DNA from: Halomarina pelagica
GTDB lineage: Archaea > Halobacteriota > Halobacteria > Halobacteriales > Haloarculaceae
Assembly: GCF_024228315.1 (NCBI RefSeq)
Contig: NZ_CP100454.1
Location: 1,860,001 to 1,924,000 of the forward strand
Length of the DNA: 64,000 bases
Reading direction: 5' to 3'
Every line of letters starts with the position of its first letter. The first letter of the stretch is position 1. Under the pieces are notes generated by a model that saw only the letters and a program-made list of their open reading frames with translations, was not told the DNA's origin and searched no databases. Below are positions 11,533 to 24,139 of this stretch, one piece after another. Position numbers and translations under genes: made by a program.

Positions 11533-12180
11533 ATGGGACTGCTCACCGACCTCAGGGATAGCATCTCGCGAGCCACCTCTCGACTCTTCGCGGGACCGGG
11601 ACAGGAACCGAAACGCATCGGCATCTACGGTCCGCCGAACGCCGGTAAAACCACGTTAGCAAACCGCATAGCTCGCGACTGGACCGGGGACGCCGTCGGT
11701 CCGGAGAGTCACGTTCCACACGAAACGCGCCGCGCCCGGCGCAAGGAGAACGTCGAGATCAAGCGCAACGGCAAGACCGTCACGATCGACATCGTCGACA
11801 CGCCGGGCGTGACGACGAAGGTCGACTACAAGGAGTTCCTCGAACACGACATGGAGAAGGAGGACGCCGTCCGCCGGTCACGGGAGGCCACCGAGGGCGT
11901 CGCGGAGGCCATGCACTGGCTCCGGGAGGACGTCGACGGCGTCATCTACGTGCTCGACAGCGCCGAGGACCCGTTCACGCAGGTCAATACGATGCTCATC
12001 GGTATCATCGAGAGCCGCGACCTGCCCGTGCTCATCTTCGCGAACAAGATCGATCTGGAGGAGTCGAGCGTCCAGCGCATCTCGAACGCCTTCCCACAGC
12101 ACGAGACCGTCCCGCTGTCGGCGCTCGAGGGCGACAACATGGACGAGGTCTACGACAAAATCGCGGAGTACTTCGCCTGA
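11533..12180 (+). CDS. oapA: Era-like GTPase, origin-associated protein A
   Basis: 215 residues. It is a small G protein of the Era/TrmE-like group that is conserved beside haloarchaeal oriC1; its cellular role is not established. The G1 P-loop is GPPNAGKTT (33-41), G3 is DTPG (89-92), G4 is NKID (171-174) and G5 is SAL (196-198). Residues 1-25 form an amphipathic helix (LTDLRDSISRATSRLF). I chose the ATG at 11533 (MGLLTDLRD) rather than the GTG-like starts upstream because conserved homologues start there and a TATA-like CCTTAAGTAC precedes it. It is the first gene of a tight oapA-oapB-oapC operon (4 bp, then a 1-base overlap). Confidence 0.88.
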   Translation: MGLLTDLRDSISRATSRLFAGPGQEPKRIGIYGPPNAGKTTLANRIARDWTGDAVGPESHVPHETRRARRKENVEIKRNGKTVTIDIVDTPGVTTKVDYKEFLEHDMEKEDAVRRSREATEGVAEAMHWLREDVDGVIYVLDSAEDPFTQVNTMLIGIIESRDLPVLIFANKIDLEESSVQRISNAFPQHETVPLSALEGDNMDEVYDKIAEYFA

Positions 12181-18132: not shown

Positions 18133-18228
18133 TCACGTATCCCCCTCCCGTTCCGCTGACTCGAACAGCTCCGGTGCGACGTCGAGCGAGGCGTGCTGTC
18201 GCCGTTCGCGCGACTCGTCGGGGGTCAT
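18133..18228 (-). CDS. 31-residue small protein coupled to nirA
   Basis: The ATG lies two bases after the nirA stop (TGACGATG), giving MTPDESRERRQHASLDVA followed by PELFESAEREGDT. The tight spacing suggests translation coupled to nirA. The peptide is very hydrophilic, without cysteines or a membrane helix. I do not recognise it. It could be a genuine small protein of the nitrate cluster or chance coding in a GC-rich genome. Confidence 0.4.
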   Translation of the reverse strand: MTPDESRERRQHASLDVAPELFESAEREGDT

Positions 18229-18230
18229 CG

Positions 18231-19994
18231 TCAGTCGTCCGAGGTGGTCGGCGCGCCGTCGACCGCCGACCGTGCGGGCGTCGAGTCGTCGGCGAACGGG
18301 TACCACGACCCCTTGGCGTCGTACATCGCCGGGTCCTCGTAGTCCGTCTCCTCCGGTTCGCAGAACGCCGTCAGCGCCTCCTCGTCGGTCGCCGCGACCC
18401 ACTCGCGGAAGGACTCCCCGTCGCTCCGCTCTGCGACGAACGCCTCGATCAGGTTCCGCAGCGCGCCCGGCACCTCGTCCGCGGGGACGCGCTGGCGGAT
18501 CCACGTCACGAAGCCCGGTTCCTCGCCCATCCCACCGCCGACGCCGACGTCGAGCGCCTCGACGAGTTCGCCGTCCTTCCGCCCGCGCATCCCCAGCAGG
18601 CCGATGTCGGCGGTGTGGGCGTGTCCGCAGTCGGCCGTACAGCCCGAGAAGTGGACGTGGAGGTGCTCCACGTCCGGCGGGAGGTCGACGTTCGCGTTCA
18701 GCCACCGGAGCAACCGGGCGAGGCGCGTCTTCGTCTCCGTGAGCGCGAGCGAGCAGAACTCCGTCCCCGTGCAGGCCATCCCGCCGCGCTGGAACGGCGT
18801 CGGCTCCGCCGGGTAGCGCTCCAGGAGCGGCTCGGCGAGCAGGTCGGCCACGTTCGACTCGGGGACGTCCACGAGAAGGGGGTTCTGCCGCCGGGTGAGC
18901 CGGATCTCGCCGGAGCCGTACGCCTCCGCGAGGTCGGCGAGCGCCAGCGCGTCGCGCGCCGGGAGCCGTCCGACGGGGACGGTCAGACCCACGAAGTAGT
19001 CGCCGTCGCGCTGCTGGTTCACCCCTACGAGGTCCGCGTCGCCGGTTCCCGATCCGGCGTTGTACTCGTACCGCTCGCGGAAGTCCTCGCCCGCCGGGCG
19101 GAGGTCGAAGTCGACGTACTCCGCGTCGAGCAGGTCGCGGATCCGGTCCGTGCCCCACTCGTCGACGAGGAAGCGGGTTCGGTTGCGCGCGCGGCGCTGG
19201 CGGTCGCCGTGATCGCGGTAGAGCCGTACGAACCCGCGGACGACCTCGTAGGCCTCCTCGGGGGTGACGAAGACGTCGAGCGGCCGGGCGACCCGGGGTT
19301 GCTTCCCCCCGAGCCCGCCGCCGACGCGGACGTTGTAGCCGATCACCGCCTCGCCGTCTACCTCCTGCCGCGCCGGTTCGAGGCCGACGTCGTTGATCGC
19401 GTCCTGGGCCGAGCCGTCGGGGACCCCGCTCACGCCGATGTTGAACTTCCGGGGGAGGTTCGACAGGGCGTCGTCCCCGCGGAGGTCGGTCGACAGGCGC
19501 TCGAGGAGCGGCCGGGTGTCGATCACCTCGCGGGCGTCCTTCCCGGCGACGGGGCTGCCCGTGATGTTGCGCATCGCGTCCCCACCGGAGGAGCGGGTGC
19601 TCACGCCGACGGCCTCGAGCTTCTTCCAGATCGCGGGGACGTCCGCAAGCCTGATCCAGTGGAGCTGGATCGACTGGCGGCTGGTGAGGTCGATCCACCC
19701 GTTGCCGAACTCGGGGTTGGCGACCGGCCCGACGGCGTAGTCGCGGGCCACCTCCGCGACGGCCGTCAGCTGCCCGGGGCGCAGGACGCCGTCGGCGTTC
19801 GCGATCCGCATCATGAAGTAGCCCTCCTGGCCGCTCCGCTGGTGGAACAGTCCCCAGAACTTGAAGCGGCTGAACCAGGCGTCCCGCTCGTCCTCGGGGA
19901 CGGACTCGAACCCCTCCTCCGCGAACGCGAGGATCCGGTCGCGCACCGCGTCGCCGTAGCACTCGTCCTTCCACGCCTCCTTCTTATGCGCCAC
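18231..19994 (-). CDS. nirA: Assimilatory ferredoxin-nitrite reductase
   Basis: 587 residues. NirA reduces nitrite to ammonium with six electrons from ferredoxin, using siroheme and a [4Fe-4S] cluster. The two-repeat sulfite/nitrite reductase fold is seen: LTSRQSIQLHWIRLADVP is the siroheme-binding phrase of the first half, and the cluster cysteines are CTGTEFC (about 406-412) and CTADC (about 450-454). It starts with GTG at 19994 (AHKKEAWKDECYG), the only start before the conserved N-terminus. It is separated by 365 bp from the transporter gene and has its own AT-rich upstream region with a palindrome, so separate transcription is likely. Sulfite reductase is less likely given the linked nitrate genes. 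Confidence 0.9.
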   Translation of the reverse strand: MAHKKEAWKDECYGDAVRDRILAFAEEGFESVPEDERDAWFSRFKFWGLFHQRSGQEGYFMMRIANADGVLRPGQLTAVAEVARDYAVGPVANPEFGNGWIDLTSRQSIQLHWIRLADVPAIWKKLEAVGVSTRSSGGDAMRNITGSPVAGKDAREVIDTRPLLERLSTDLRGDDALSNLPRKFNIGVSGVPDGSAQDAINDVGLEPARQEVDGEAVIGYNVRVGGGLGGKQPRVARPLDVFVTPEEAYEVVRGFVRLYRDHGDRQRRARNRTRFLVDEWGTDRIRDLLDAEYVDFDLRPAGEDFRERYEYNAGSGTGDADLVGVNQQRDGDYFVGLTVPVGRLPARDALALADLAEAYGSGEIRLTRRQNPLLVDVPESNVADLLAEPLLERYPAEPTPFQRGGMACTGTEFCSLALTETKTRLARLLRWLNANVDLPPDVEHLHVHFSGCTADCGHAHTADIGLLGMRGRKDGELVEALDVGVGGGMGEEPGFVTWIRQRVPADEVPGALRNLIEAFVAERSDGESFREWVAATDEEALTAFCEPEETDYEDPAMYDAKGSWYPFADDSTPARSAVDGAPTTSDD

Positions 19995-20008
19995 TGCCGC
20001 TCACCTCA

Positions 20009-20030
20009 CAAAGACGTACGTCTACTTTGT
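20009..20030. promoter_or_regulatory. Palindrome before nirA
   Basis: ACAAAGACGTACGTCTACTTTGT is an almost perfect inverted repeat around ACGTACGT, 15-36 bases before the nirA GTG. The position suits an operator. The surrounding 365-bp gap (19995-20359) is AT-rich near 20030-20150 and holds no gene. Confidence 0.45.
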
Positions 20031-20359
20031 CGGCTGATTTTTTCATGTACATTCTTCGTTTCACTCTAAGTCGGATGATCGTGGAGCACAATAGGATAAA
20101 AGCGTAATCGTTGAAAATATCTAAAAACGCCGCGTCGGGCGGAACGAGCGTCTAATCTGAGTAGGTGTATAGGCGATATAAGGGGGTTCTTTGTCGAAAA
20201 ACGGCGGAGGATACGGAACGCAACTGTCCCATCGTCAAATTGTCGTCGGCCGCTCCCACCGCCTCGCGCCGTCCCGTCGCGCGCGAGTTCGCCCCGCTCG
20301 TGGCTCCTGTCCCGCGTTCGCGGAAGAATTCGGAGGAGGGTGACGGGCGTCGAGTCGCC

Positions 20360-21643
20360 TCAGTCGTCGCTCTCGTCCGCGCGCTCCGGGGAGGACGCGG
20401 GGTCGAACGGTCCGGCGGCGTGCGCCCGACGGGCGACGACTGGCCGCGCGATCCACGCGTTCAGGAGGACGATGGGGACCACTAGGGCGGCCACGGCGGC
20501 GTACCCGGCGTGGACGCTCCCGAGGGTCGTCGCGGCGGAGGCGAACACGAGGGGGAAGCCGATCCCGCCGAACGTGCCGATCCCGCCGACGAGCCCGGCG
20601 GCCGTCCCCGTCCGCTCGGGGAACATCGCCGGGACCTGCGCGAACACCGCGCCCTCGGCGAACGCACAGGACGCGCCGACGAGCACGCCCGCGGCGACGG
20701 TGAGCGTCACGCTCCCCGTCTCGCCCGCGAGCGTCAGTCCGAACAGGCTGACCACCACGCACGAGAGGCAGACGACGGTCCACTGCTCCCGCGGGCGACC
20801 GGCGAACACGGGGAGGACGTCGCGCTCCTCGCGCACGAGCCGGTCGCTGACGTACCCGCCGATCGGCCGAAGGAGTCCCGCGGCGAGCGAGAAGGTCGCC
20901 GCGAAGGTACTCGCGACCACGAGCCCCGAGCCGAAGCCCTCGCGGAAGTACGTCGGGAGCCAGCCGTTCATCGAAATCTCGAGCCCGAAGCTCATCACGT
21001 AGGCCAGCGAGAGACCGAGGACGCCGTAGCGGGTGGCGACGTGGAGCCACTCTCTGAGGGACGCCCGCTCGCTCGCCTCGCGTGCCCGCGCCTCGCTTTC
21101 TGCGTCCTCACCCAGCAGGACGTAGACGACCGCCATCGCCATCGCCGCGACGCCCGTGACGAGGAACGCGCTCCGCCAGTCGGTCCCGAACAGCCGCGGG
21201 AGCAGGAGCGCCCCTCCGGCGGCCCCCGCGTTCCCGACGCCGGCGTAGACGCCCTCGGCGGTCCCCAGTTGCTCCTCGGGGAACCACTGGGCGACGTGCT
21301 GGATGCCGACGACGAACGTGACGCCCGCCGAGGCGACGACCAGTCGCGAGAGGAAGAACGCGACGTAGGAGTCGGCGAACGCGCTGACGACGCTGAACGC
21401 GCCGACGTACGCGAGCACCGCGGCGAACACCTTCGGCGCGCCGAACCGATCGGAGAGCCAGCCGGTCACGATCCGGCCCGGCGGCGCGCTCCAGATGGCG
21501 GCGCTCGCGAGCAGTCCGAGGTCCCACGTCGTGAGCCCGAACTCCTCGCCGATGGGGCCAGTGAACGGGGCGAACGAGAACCAGATCAGGAAGGAGAGGT
21601 TGAACGCGGCGGTCGCGAGCAGGAGCGTCCGCCACTTCGTCAT
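20360..21643 (-). CDS. Nitrate/nitrite transporter, MFS NarK/NasA type
   Basis: 427 residues with about 12 membrane helices ([26 protein letters not shown] at the start). MFS signature [12 protein letters not shown] follows helix 2, and the nitrate-porter motifs [15 protein letters not shown] (helix 5) and [18 protein letters not shown] (helix 11) are present, matching NNP family carriers. I prefer the ATG at 21643; a GTG at 21658, overlapping the nasA stop as TGAGTG, is an alternative giving five more residues. It follows nasA with 15 bases between, so nasA and the transporter form an operon for nitrate uptake and reduction. Confidence 0.9.
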
Positions 21644-21658
21644 CCGGACGAGCCCCAC

Positions 21659-23746
21659 TCAGCTCACCTCCGGGAGCGCGACGCCCCGCGACCGCTCGGG
21701 CGCGACCAGCCTGACGGCGCACTGCTTGTAGTTCGGCTCTCGTGACAGCGGATCGACCGCCGGGAGCGTGAGTCGGTTGGCGAGCGGGTGGTGGATCGGC
21801 ACCCAGACCACCCCCTCCGGGACGCCCTGGTCGGGGACGAGGCGGGCGGGGACCGCCCCCCGGCGCGACTGGAGCGTCGCGGTCGGCCCGTCCCCGCCGC
21901 GCTCGATCCCCGACCGGTGGCGCTCGACCGTCGCCGGGTGGACGCGCGCGACCAGCGCCCCGCGATCCCCCGGCCCGGCGCGCGAGCGGACCCCCGTGTT
22001 GTACGCCTCGGCCGTCCGCGCCGTCGTGAGCGTGAGCGGGTACGCTTCGTCGGTCGGTTCCGCGGGGTCGGCGGCGACCTGCGCCCCGAAGCGCGCCAGG
22101 CCGTCGGCCGTCGGGAACGACCAGCCATCGCCGTCGCGGTAGCGGTAGCCGCCGACCGAGTCGGCGTCGGGCGCGGGCCAGCGGACGGCGCGCTCGGCGT
22201 CGAGTCGCTCGTACGTGATCCCCGAGCAGTCGGCGTTCGTCCCCGCGGTGAGCGCGGCGAACTCGGCGAACGTCGCCGTGGCCGACGGCGGCGCGTCCGG
22301 GAACAGGCCGGGAGCGACGCCGTTCCCGATCGCCGCGATCAGGTCCAGGTCGCTCCTGACCCCCGAGGGCGTCCCGGTCACGGGGCGCACCCGCGAGACC
22401 GTCCGCTCCATGTTCATCGCCGTCCCCGAGGACTCGCCCCACGTCGCGGCCGGGAGGACGACGTCGGCGCACTCGACGGTCTCGGTGCGGAACGCGTCCT
22501 GGACGACGAGGAACGCCTCGTCCAGCCGCGATGCGGCCCGGTCCGCGTCGGGCAGGCTGGCGACGGGGTTCGTCGCCACCGTCCAGACGGCCTCGACCTC
22601 GCTCCCTACGCGGTCGACGATCCCGACCGGCCCCGGACCGGCGTCGTCCGGGAGGCGCGCCTCGGGGACCCCCCAGGTCGCCGCGACCGCCGCTCGCGCC
22701 GCCGGGTCGTCGAACGGTCGGTGGCCCGGCCAGGTACCCTTCGAAGAGCAGACGCGCGTCCCCATCGAGTTGGCCTGCCCGGTGAGCGAGAACGGCCCGC
22801 GCCCCGGTCCGAGGTTCCCCGTGGCGAGACAGAGGTCGATCAGCGCCCGCGCCGTCGCGGTCCCGTTCGCGCTCTGGTTGACGCCCATCCCCCAGTAGAG
22901 CAGCGTCCGACGGTCGAGCAGCGCCGCGAGTCGGCGGACCGTCCCGGCCGGGACGCCCGCCGCGGCCGCCCCCGCCTCGACGGTCGGCAACCGAGCGCGC
23001 AGGGCCTCGAACCCGGTCGTCGCCTCGCGCACGAACGCCTCGTCGATCCCGTCGCGTTCGACGGCGGCGGCGAGCACGGCGCGGACGAGCGCCAGGTCGG
23101 CACCCGGCTTCGGTCGGACGTGGAGGTCCGCGCGCGCCGCGGTCCGCGTCTCGACGGGATCGACGACGACGAGGTCGCCGTCGGCCGCGCTATCCTCGAT
23201 CCAGCGAAAGAGCACCGGGTGCGCGACCGCCGGGTTCGCCCCCCAGATCACGTGCACGTCGGCCAGCGGGACGTCGTCGTACGTCGGCGGGGGCGCGTCG
23301 CTCCCGAACGCGTCGTAGTAGGCCCGGACCGCGCTGGCCATGCAGAGCGTCGTGTTGGCGTCGTAGTTGCGCGTCCCGACGCCGCCGCGGGCGACCTTCC
23401 CCAGGGCGTACGCCGCCTCGTTGGTCTGCTGGCCGCTCCCGAGGACCGCCACGCCGTTCGGGTCCCGCTCGGTGATCGCCCGGAAGCGAGCGATCACCGC
23501 CCCGAGTGCGACGTCCCAGGTCGTCGGAACTAGCTCGCCGCTGCGCCTGATCAACGGGCGGGTAAGCCACTCGCCGTCGGGGTCGGCCGACTCGCTCGTC
23601 CCCCGCCGACAGGCCAGCCCGCGATTGACGGGGTGGGCCGGGTCGCCGCGCACCGCGTCGACGCCGTACCCGATCGCCGCGCCCTGCTGGACGTGCCCGC
23701 ACCCGACGGCGCAGCGCATGCACGTCGTCGGGACCTGTTCGCTCAT
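21659..23746 (-). CDS. nasA: Assimilatory nitrate reductase, molybdopterin catalytic subunit
   Basis: 695 residues. The protein reduces nitrate to nitrite, using bis-MGD molybdenum and an N-terminal [4Fe-4S] cluster bound by Cys9, Cys12, Cys16 and Cys46 (CMRCAVGC...GLAC). The molybdopterin oxidoreductase core has IWGANPAVAHPVLF, YWGMGVNQSANG and GQANSMGTRVCSSKGTWPGHRPF, and the C-terminal dinucleotide-binding domain has LTTARTAEAYNTG. No Tat signal is seen, so the enzyme is cytoplasmic, as expected for assimilation. Its start ATG overlaps the stop of a 24-codon upstream reading frame (ATGA). A TATA box lies at about 23851-23859. Expression is probably induced by nitrate and repressed by ammonium, but no known operator is evident. 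Confidence 0.9.
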   Translation of the reverse strand: MSEQVPTTCMRCAVGCGHVQQGAAIGYGVDAVRGDPAHPVNRGLACRRGTSESADPDGEWLTRPLIRRSGELVPTTWDVALGAVIARFRAITERDPNGVAVLGSGQQTNEAAYALGKVARGGVGTRNYDANTTLCMASAVRAYYDAFGSDAPPPTYDDVPLADVHVIWGANPAVAHPVLFRWIEDSAADGDLVVVDPVETRTAARADLHVRPKPGADLALVRAVLAAAVERDGIDEAFVREATTGFEALRARLPTVEAGAAAAGVPAGTVRRLAALLDRRTLLYWGMGVNQSANGTATARALIDLCLATGNLGPGRGPFSLTGQANSMGTRVCSSKGTWPGHRPFDDPAARAAVAATWGVPEARLPDDAGPGPVGIVDRVGSEVEAVWTVATNPVASLPDADRAASRLDEAFLVVQDAFRTETVECADVVLPAATWGESSGTAMNMERTVSRVRPVTGTPSGVRSDLDLIAAIGNGVAPGLFPDAPPSATATFAEFAALTAGTNADCSGITYERLDAERAVRWPAPDADSVGGYRYRDGDGWSFPTADGLARFGAQVAADPAEPTDEAYPLTLTTARTAEAYNTGVRSRAGPGDRGALVARVHPATVERHRSGIERGGDGPTATLQSRRGAVPARLVPDQGVPEGVVWVPIHHPLANRLTLPAVDPLSREPNYKQCAVRLVAPERSRGVALPEVS

Positions 23747-23817
23747 CGGCGCACCACCGCGGGACGCGATCGAGGTGGACGAACGTCCGCGAATCTCGAA
23801 TCTCGGTCGTGTTTCAT
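23743..23817 (-). CDS. 24-residue leader reading frame overlapping the nasA start
   Basis: ATG at 23817 encodes MKHDRDSRFADVRPPRSR then PAVVRR, and its TGA overlaps the nasA ATG as ATGA. The peptide is unusually basic (9 Arg/Lys/His-type residues), unlike the acidic norm here. The predicted transcription start (TATA at 23851-23859) would place this frame first on the mRNA with about 10 bases of leader. It could be a translational coupling device rather than a functional peptide. Confidence 0.45.
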   Translation of the reverse strand: MKHDRDSRFADVRPPRSRPAVVRR

Positions 23818-23850
23818 TGGTACTCGACGTAAAAAGTTGATACAGTACTG

Positions 23851-23859
23851 ATTTATAGT
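23851..23859 (-). promoter_or_regulatory. TATA box of the nas operon
   Basis: Minus-strand ACTATAAAT lies about 35-42 bases before the leader frame ATG and about 105 bases before nasA. Confidence 0.55.
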
Positions 23860-23946
23860 CTCAACTGTTTATGAATGTCTCTTTGTGTGCGACATCGGCA
23901 GACGAACGGCCAAAAACACAACGTGTATTACGCGACTAAGGGAATT

Positions 23947-23992
23947 TTTCGTCCAATTCCGAGGCGGACACCCCTCGAAAAACTGGACGAAA
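23947..23992. terminator. Inverted repeat between thrC and the nas promoter
   Basis: TTTCGTCCA (23947-23955) pairs with TGGACGAAA (23984-23992), and an inner CGAGG/CCTCG pair shortens the loop. It lies 148 bp beyond the upstream end of the nas promoter and 150 bp before the thrC stop. As both neighbours are on the minus strand it could be regulatory for nas or simply a palindromic repeat. The rest of 23860-24139 shows no gene. Confidence 0.4.
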
Positions 23993-24139
23993 TACATTCC
24001 CGTCGGTCGGCGATCGACGCGGCGGTAGGGAGGTCGATCGCCCGACCGCGCGCCGGCGATCCGCACCGTCCTCTCACCGTTCGACCACCGCGTCCCTCCC
24101 GCGGCGAGGTGGGTCTGGGGGTCCGATTGACCGTCCCGC

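Follow-up and report, generated by a model that had tools for sequence, protein, structure and literature searches.

A short leader frame overlapping the nasA start recurs across the Halobacteriales and probably delivers ribosomes to the nitrate reductase gene

In Halomarina pelagica, a 24-codon open reading frame lies ahead of the assimilatory nitrate reductase gene nasA and overlaps the nasA start codon with its stop codon. A frame that opens with ATG and terminates at the nasA start was found in 99 of 118 dereplicated nasA loci (those that passed a filter against a gene directly upstream). Comparison of the loci indicates that selection has kept the start codon of this leader, its open frame and the overlap of stop and start, and has not kept its peptide. 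Because the frame recurs in most relatives but the peptide does not, its job is suggested to be the passing of ribosomes to nasA, and we consider a leader that delivers ribosomes independently of its peptide to be the probable explanation.

Coordinates refer to the window, the whole 64,000-nt stretch of the 4.6-Mb genome that was analyzed. The leader frame (24 codons plus TGA, MKHDRDSRFADVRPPRSRPAVVRR) occupies 23817..23743 on the minus strand, as the original prediction had described from the ORF list and the sequence. Its TGA (23745-23743) and the nasA ATG (23746-23744, minus strand) have the letters ATGA (23743..23746) in common. The nasA gene (21659..23746, minus strand) encodes a protein of 695 aa whose identity is firm (equivalog model NF041323, 1144.9 bits vs. 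a cut-off of 1000). The next gene on the strand is nasB (20360..21658, minus strand), a NarK-type nitrate/nitrite transporter whose best match, TIGR00886, scored 196 bits, under the model cut-off of 311.7. After a gap follows nirA (nasD; 18231..19994, minus strand, GTG start), a probable assimilatory nitrite reductase gene recognized from its ORF and relatives and named by analogy: three plasmid records annotate a ferredoxin--nitrite reductase gene next to nasA. The leader peptide contains 8 Arg but only one His among its 24 residues; it is thus rich in Arg, as had been noted, and the same description was wrong for His. Among the matches listed, which may omit records very close to the window, the nearest named relative was Halomarina halobia, with 94% identity in NasA; its leader, MKDDRYSRFTDVRPPRLRSAVVRR, is identical to that of the window in length and overlap.

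The first set comprised the best 80 of 275 named nasA candidates and 30 loci from a family search, with the window itself among these 30. The nasA start was placed by homology, and two loci lacked a start codon close to the aligned position. The other 108 loci were reduced to 93 representatives at 90% identity. Of these, 10 were set aside for an upstream context that was operon-internal or unclear, 4 for unclear starts and 1 for insufficient length, which left 78 curated loci. In the shuffles, dinucleotides of the upstream sequence were kept and the real nasA start was left intact. An open ATG frame with a stop exactly at +4 was present in 61 of the 78 curated loci (36 of 50 when counted by loose sequence clusters), compared with 14.0 ± 3.2 in the shuffles (maximum 23, 300 runs). 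Six further curated loci had an ATG in the other out-of-frame phase with a stop at +8, which brought the total to 67.

A single mechanical rule was then run on every set (first, hold-out and controls). Under this rule, 64 of 77 loci of the first set were coupled (110 located, 15 dropped, 77 after dereplication), compared with 19.8 in the shuffles (maximum 35). For the hold-out, the order's other families supplied 80 regions, chosen among the matches listed; 27 resembling the first set were removed, 5 were dropped and 44 remained after dereplication. Coupling was found in 38 of these 44 (shuffles 11.0, maximum 18 in 200 runs). Three hold-out loci (L238, L264 and L268), which have a small gene with MDVAPELF in another arrangement and no leader, were taken out after inspection, leaving 35 of 41; the pooled count given at the outset includes this correction. 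Of the 102 coupled loci, three operon-internal loci among them, 92 had the stop at +4, and NTGA was present at the nasA start in 112 of the 118 loci. When 68 of the 80 named loci were tallied by lineage with a limit of 140 nt, a coupled ATG leader occurred at least once in 32 of 38 lineages and was absent from the other six.

The 19 exceptions, without an ATG leader within 130 nt, had an ATG frame slightly farther upstream in 3 cases, a GTG frame only (weak evidence) in 12, and neither in 4. The filter against upstream genes was imperfect, since one locus counted as coupled (L009) lies behind a nirA and a DUF6360 gene that a plasmid record places 117 nt away. Annotated nasA starts agreed with the homology starts in all four plasmid records consulted. 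In three of these records nasA lies behind nirA, and one has a hypothetical protein with a 4-nt overlap with the nasA start; none of the four lists a leader ORF like that of the window, the PLSDB tables being incomplete.

Stops are rare in GC-rich DNA, and a second NasA codon starting with A gives a TGA at +4 automatically, so that the +4 TGA is by itself weak evidence, and an open frame in a GC-rich leader may arise by chance. Four unrelated control genes, all from the window's own family, gave 11 coupled loci of 72 when pooled: 2 of 15 for citrate synthase (30 located, 12 dropped), 0 of 19 for a phoU-domain protein (30 located, 9 dropped), 4 of 21 for a tiaS-like gene (9 dropped) and 5 of 17 for a GTPase gene. 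Shuffles run for citrate synthase (1.6) and the phoU-domain protein (0.7) showed both of these counts to be no higher than chance. The original prediction had allowed that the nasA frame could equally be chance; this was rejected, as the arrangement recurs across the order above both shuffles and controls. The shuffles of the curated loci and of the hold-out, together with the promoter geometry described below, led us to discard a chance frame, which we regard as extremely improbable.

Upstream of the GTPase gene (window position 11533), a conserved stretch beside CTTAAGT imitates a short ORF (MSDVxLSE) in loci L328-L348. A pattern located 19 of 30 loci; in these, the ATG beside CTTAAGT led to stops at -46, -1 or +13, or to none before the gene, and three of the five coupled GTPase cases were met again among them. 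The stretch is probably the promoter itself, and the stop of the mimic ORF is not conserved.

A motif search that took no account of the leader was run over the 118 nasA loci and gave TaAACGATTAccGTTTTg in the region ahead of nasA. At 83 confident promoter sites, the first ATG lying 12 nt or more downstream began a frame that terminates at the nasA start in 66 cases (59 at +4, 5 at +8 and 2 at -5, the last in Haloferax, which has a GTGA start nine bases upstream of the aligned nasA start). The distance from the motif to the leader ATG was 24-37 nt in 62 of these 66 (extremes 13 and 64), and that from the motif to nasA had a median of 111 nt (10th to 90th percentile, 90-125 nt). In 13 of 15 citrate synthase loci, the best site lay 24-26 nt from the ATG. 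The motif is therefore taken as the core promoter, for which a distance of about 25 nt would mean a leaderless transcript, and TAAACGATTAccGTTTT was rejected as a nas-specific operator on the same grounds. With the spacing calibrated in this way, the mRNA end is predicted 0-12 nt ahead of the leader ATG in most cases and some 65-100 nt ahead of nasA. When one mismatch was allowed, the strict pattern AACGATTANNNTTTTA matched at only two places in the window's own genome, one of them ahead of nirA.

The window's own nasA promoter fits the learned motif poorly. A predicted TATA box, TATAAA, is present at 23852..23857 on the minus strand, within the range given by the original prediction, which had placed the leader between TATA and nasA; it lies approximately 37 nt upstream of the leader ATG. 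From the citrate synthase spacing, transcription would be expected to start approximately 10 nt ahead of the leader ATG, i.e., upstream of 23817. Farther upstream of this promoter, at 23945..23993, we observed an inverted repeat (TTTCGTCCA / TGGACGAAA), recognizable by eye in Halomarina halobia too, which is a possible operator.

A Shine-Dalgarno-like 5-mer preceded nasA in 45 of the 99 coupled loci (shuffles 13.1, maximum 22) and was absent there from the other 54, whereas it preceded the leader ATG in 3 of 99 (3.7 expected). The nasA start codon was GTG in 53 of the 99. The window has GGTGGTG at the leader end (23752..23758, minus strand), a weak Shine-Dalgarno-like element with a match of 4 nt only. 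In haloarchaea, Shine-Dalgarno motifs are described as unused for de novo initiation and commoner at overlapping gene pairs, and their contribution to reinitiation in Haloferax volcanii differs by gene pair (PMC6728339).

The pattern might be one of tolerance rather than of requirement: upstream ATGs would be purged unless their frame ends at nasA, and the survivors would look coupled without being used. In the curated loci, the in-frame class of upstream ATGs was depleted, as this reading has it (4 loci vs. 16.5 expected). However, the other out-of-frame class was not depleted (21 vs. 17.2 expected), and the coupled ATG was enriched three- to fourfold above the shuffles, which is more than being spared. 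The narrow distance of this ATG from the promoter and the enrichment of Shine-Dalgarno motifs at the reinitiation site also argue against mere tolerance, which we consider unlikely.

The leader peptides were compared within 11 clusters of equal-length leaders. Their dN/dS was near 1 in Halomarina (0.88), Halorubrum (1.14), a Haloarcula cluster (1.17) and genome family f7 (0.86), and lower in Haloferax (0.42), Natrialba (0.64), a second Halorubrum type (0.63) and one further cluster (0.66). Values of 0.42 and 0.41 were obtained for the group of L010 and for a small gene with MTDDAP, both of the operon-internal type, and 2.37 for one pair. In all of these values the pairs are non-independent, some rows are near-copies and independent events are few; the Halomarina count doubles each change, as two of its rows (L005 and L085) are copies. 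Between the leaders of the window and of Halomarina halobia, eight of 75 bases differ; five of these changes affect the first codon position, one the second and two the third. Partial constraint on the peptide is possible in Haloferax and in the clusters at 0.63-0.66; overall, these comparisons suggest that the peptide is mostly not conserved and has no coding signature. The f7 leaders (L249, L252, L263, L265, L269, L272 and L281, all from the hold-out) have CK(S/P) in common at mid-peptide; this family is probably Natrialbaceae.

A small protein with its own function would account for the parts of the peptide that are kept in some clusters. No consistent third-position excess was found across the leader clusters, and no peptide was common to the families. 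The GC content at the three codon positions of the leaders was flat (0.60/0.57/0.57), compared with 0.71/0.57/0.83 in the start of nasA. A coding small protein was rejected on the flat GC content and the missing third-position excess, and we hold this alternative to be highly improbable.

The original prediction had also suggested that the leader responds to charged tRNA or stalled ribosomes, in which case stalling on the peptide, for example at Arg or His codons, would switch nasA translation. The 8 Arg of the window peptide, the mid-peptide motif of the f7 leaders, the lower dN/dS of Haloferax and of the three clusters at about 0.65, and Glu at 1.36 of expectation could be cited for it. Relative to mononucleotide shuffles, however, Asp (1.79), Phe (1.42) and Ile (1.32) were about as high as Glu or higher, so no single residue stands out; Arg was at 1.10, and His (0.81) and Gln (0.68) were under expectation. 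Folding of the leaders gave no signal: z averaged -0.16 over the 99 leaders, with 5 of them lower than -2, and was +1.11 for the window. Amino-acid attenuators such as trp retain regulatory codons and alternative hairpins. The nasA leader resembles them as a short ORF before a metabolic operon, but neither conserved regulatory codons or peptide nor, by these z values, hairpins beyond chance were found in it. With peptides that are mostly not conserved and differ between families, no residue that stands out and no leader structure found, the sensing proposal is not supported, and attenuation dependent on peptide or tRNA appears distinctly unlikely.

The open frame could instead be incidental to a conserved DNA or RNA element, and nucleotides are indeed partly conserved within clusters. 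However, the frame, its start and its stop persist where the sequence changes. The leader of L106 is one base shorter than those of L112 and L104 and is still coupled, through a stop at +8 formed with the nasA codon AGT, where L112 and L104 have AGC (this comparison rests on these three loci, with L103 and L110 left out). A search against Rfam gave a single match, under the gathering score (E 0.14): a snoRNA model matched 23863-23993, which lies ahead of the leader. The search thus identified no riboswitch or described structured RNA family; with no structure in the leaders either, such an element is very unlikely.

A second leader ORF was found in the window ahead of nirA (19984..20052, minus strand; 22 codons, MYMKKSADKVDVRLCEVSGSGA), with a TAA that overlaps the nirA start by 11 nt; a motif scan placed the core-promoter motif of nirA, TCAACGATTACGCTTTTA, at 20097..20114 on the minus strand. 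Among 22 nirA loci, 9 were coupled, with mixed offsets (shuffles 2.5, maximum 6), and in 8 the stretch from the best motif site to the start contained no ATG. The leader is thus usual for nasA and not for nirA. Directly after nirA lies a 31-codon ORF with a DVAPELF motif (18133..18228, minus strand). Small ORFs with DVAPEL or DAAPEL overlap the nasA start by NTGA in L007, L064, L238, L264 and L268, and a hypothetical protein is annotated at the position of the DVAPEL-type small ORF in L288. A NasA tree was built from 98 loci (with fasttree only; the deepest branches are weak). Of the 8 loci labeled operon-internal, 6 grouped in a single branch of 8 rows, and ATG leaders were scattered over the tree; the label of L041 looks false. 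Given this distribution, an origin of the leader as a relic of a small ORF between nirA and nasA was not favored.

Under the preferred reading of a ribosome-delivering leader, the transcript would begin a few nucleotides ahead of the leader AUG, as the promoter distance implies, and ribosomes would initiate de novo on the leader, as on leaderless haloarchaeal mRNAs. They would translate approximately 24 codons, terminate at the TGA overlapping the nasA AUG and reinitiate at nasA, aided in many species by the Shine-Dalgarno-like motif in the last codons of the leader. NasA synthesis would then depend on translation of the leader. The idea of a small first frame followed by a coupled start, put forward in the original prediction, is thus borne out to the extent that the frame lies near the predicted 5' end, overlaps the nasA start with its stop and recurs across the order; the outcome it had named as refuting, a leader frame conserved nowhere, is not what the loci showed.

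The device itself is of a known type, and the new part is its recurrence across an order at one archaeal gene. The leaderless small ORFs of Mycobacterium reported by Shell et al. (2015; PMC4633059) lie at the 5' end, at or near which the nasA leader is predicted to start, and overlap the next start with their stop as RTGA, the form that the window leader takes as ATGA at 23743-23746. An example in that report has a peptide that is not conserved, whereas its leaderless initiation and linkage are. Linkage kept while the peptide drifts is also what the nasA leaders display, with partial constraint possible in some clusters. The mycobacterial ORFs are bacterial and were described with experimental start sites and footprints, whereas the nasA leader concerns one archaeal gene across an order and is known from sequence. 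The overlapping gene pairs of Haloferax volcanii (Huber et al. 2019, 2023; PMC6728339, PMC10666635) have the ATGA or GTGA overlap in common with the nasA leader, and the 4-nt overlap of such termination-reinitiation pairs is present at the window nasA. Their upstream frames carry a Shine-Dalgarno motif near the end; such a motif is enriched among the coupled nasA loci and matches over 4 nt only in the window. Both members of those pairs are ordinary genes, whereas the upstream member at nasA is a leader without a conserved product. These reports describe 13 of 14 tested overlapping pairs (nine of the 14 from H. volcanii) as strictly coupled, with coupling that drops steeply with distance.

In H. 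volcanii, 72% of coding transcripts were reported to be leaderless and control by structured leaders was described as not typical (PMC4983044). The same study lists 16 small ORFs in leaders of 150-250 nt which, like that of nasA, span 15-31 codons within transcript leaders; its main text does not contain the word nasA, and its section on these ORFs describes no overlap with the main start. A review raises the idea that bringing in a ribosome may be all that a short ORF does (PMC12548453). Among the matches listed from open-licence literature, no earlier description of the nasA leader ORF was found.

Ammonium repression in Haloferax mediterranei is reported as visible at the transcript level (PMC2483277), and ammonium regulation was also seen there through promoter mutations (PMC8143581). 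Since this known regulation is seen at the transcript and in promoter mutations, a translational switch is possible and not needed. More tentatively, and with clear reservations, the leader might form a gate throughout the Halobacteriales, in which nasA (and nirA in some species) would be translated only by way of a relay ORF free of sequence requirements. Output would then be set by initiation near the 5' end and by the efficiency of termination-reinitiation, and cells might tune it with their nitrogen or translation state.

An ORF that is kept for its start and stop, and not for its product, would offer a clean natural test of how archaeal ribosomes gain access to internal starts. It raises the question of why the head of a regulated operon would not simply be leaderless, and it suggests that constructs from which the nas leader has been removed could misjudge promoter strength.
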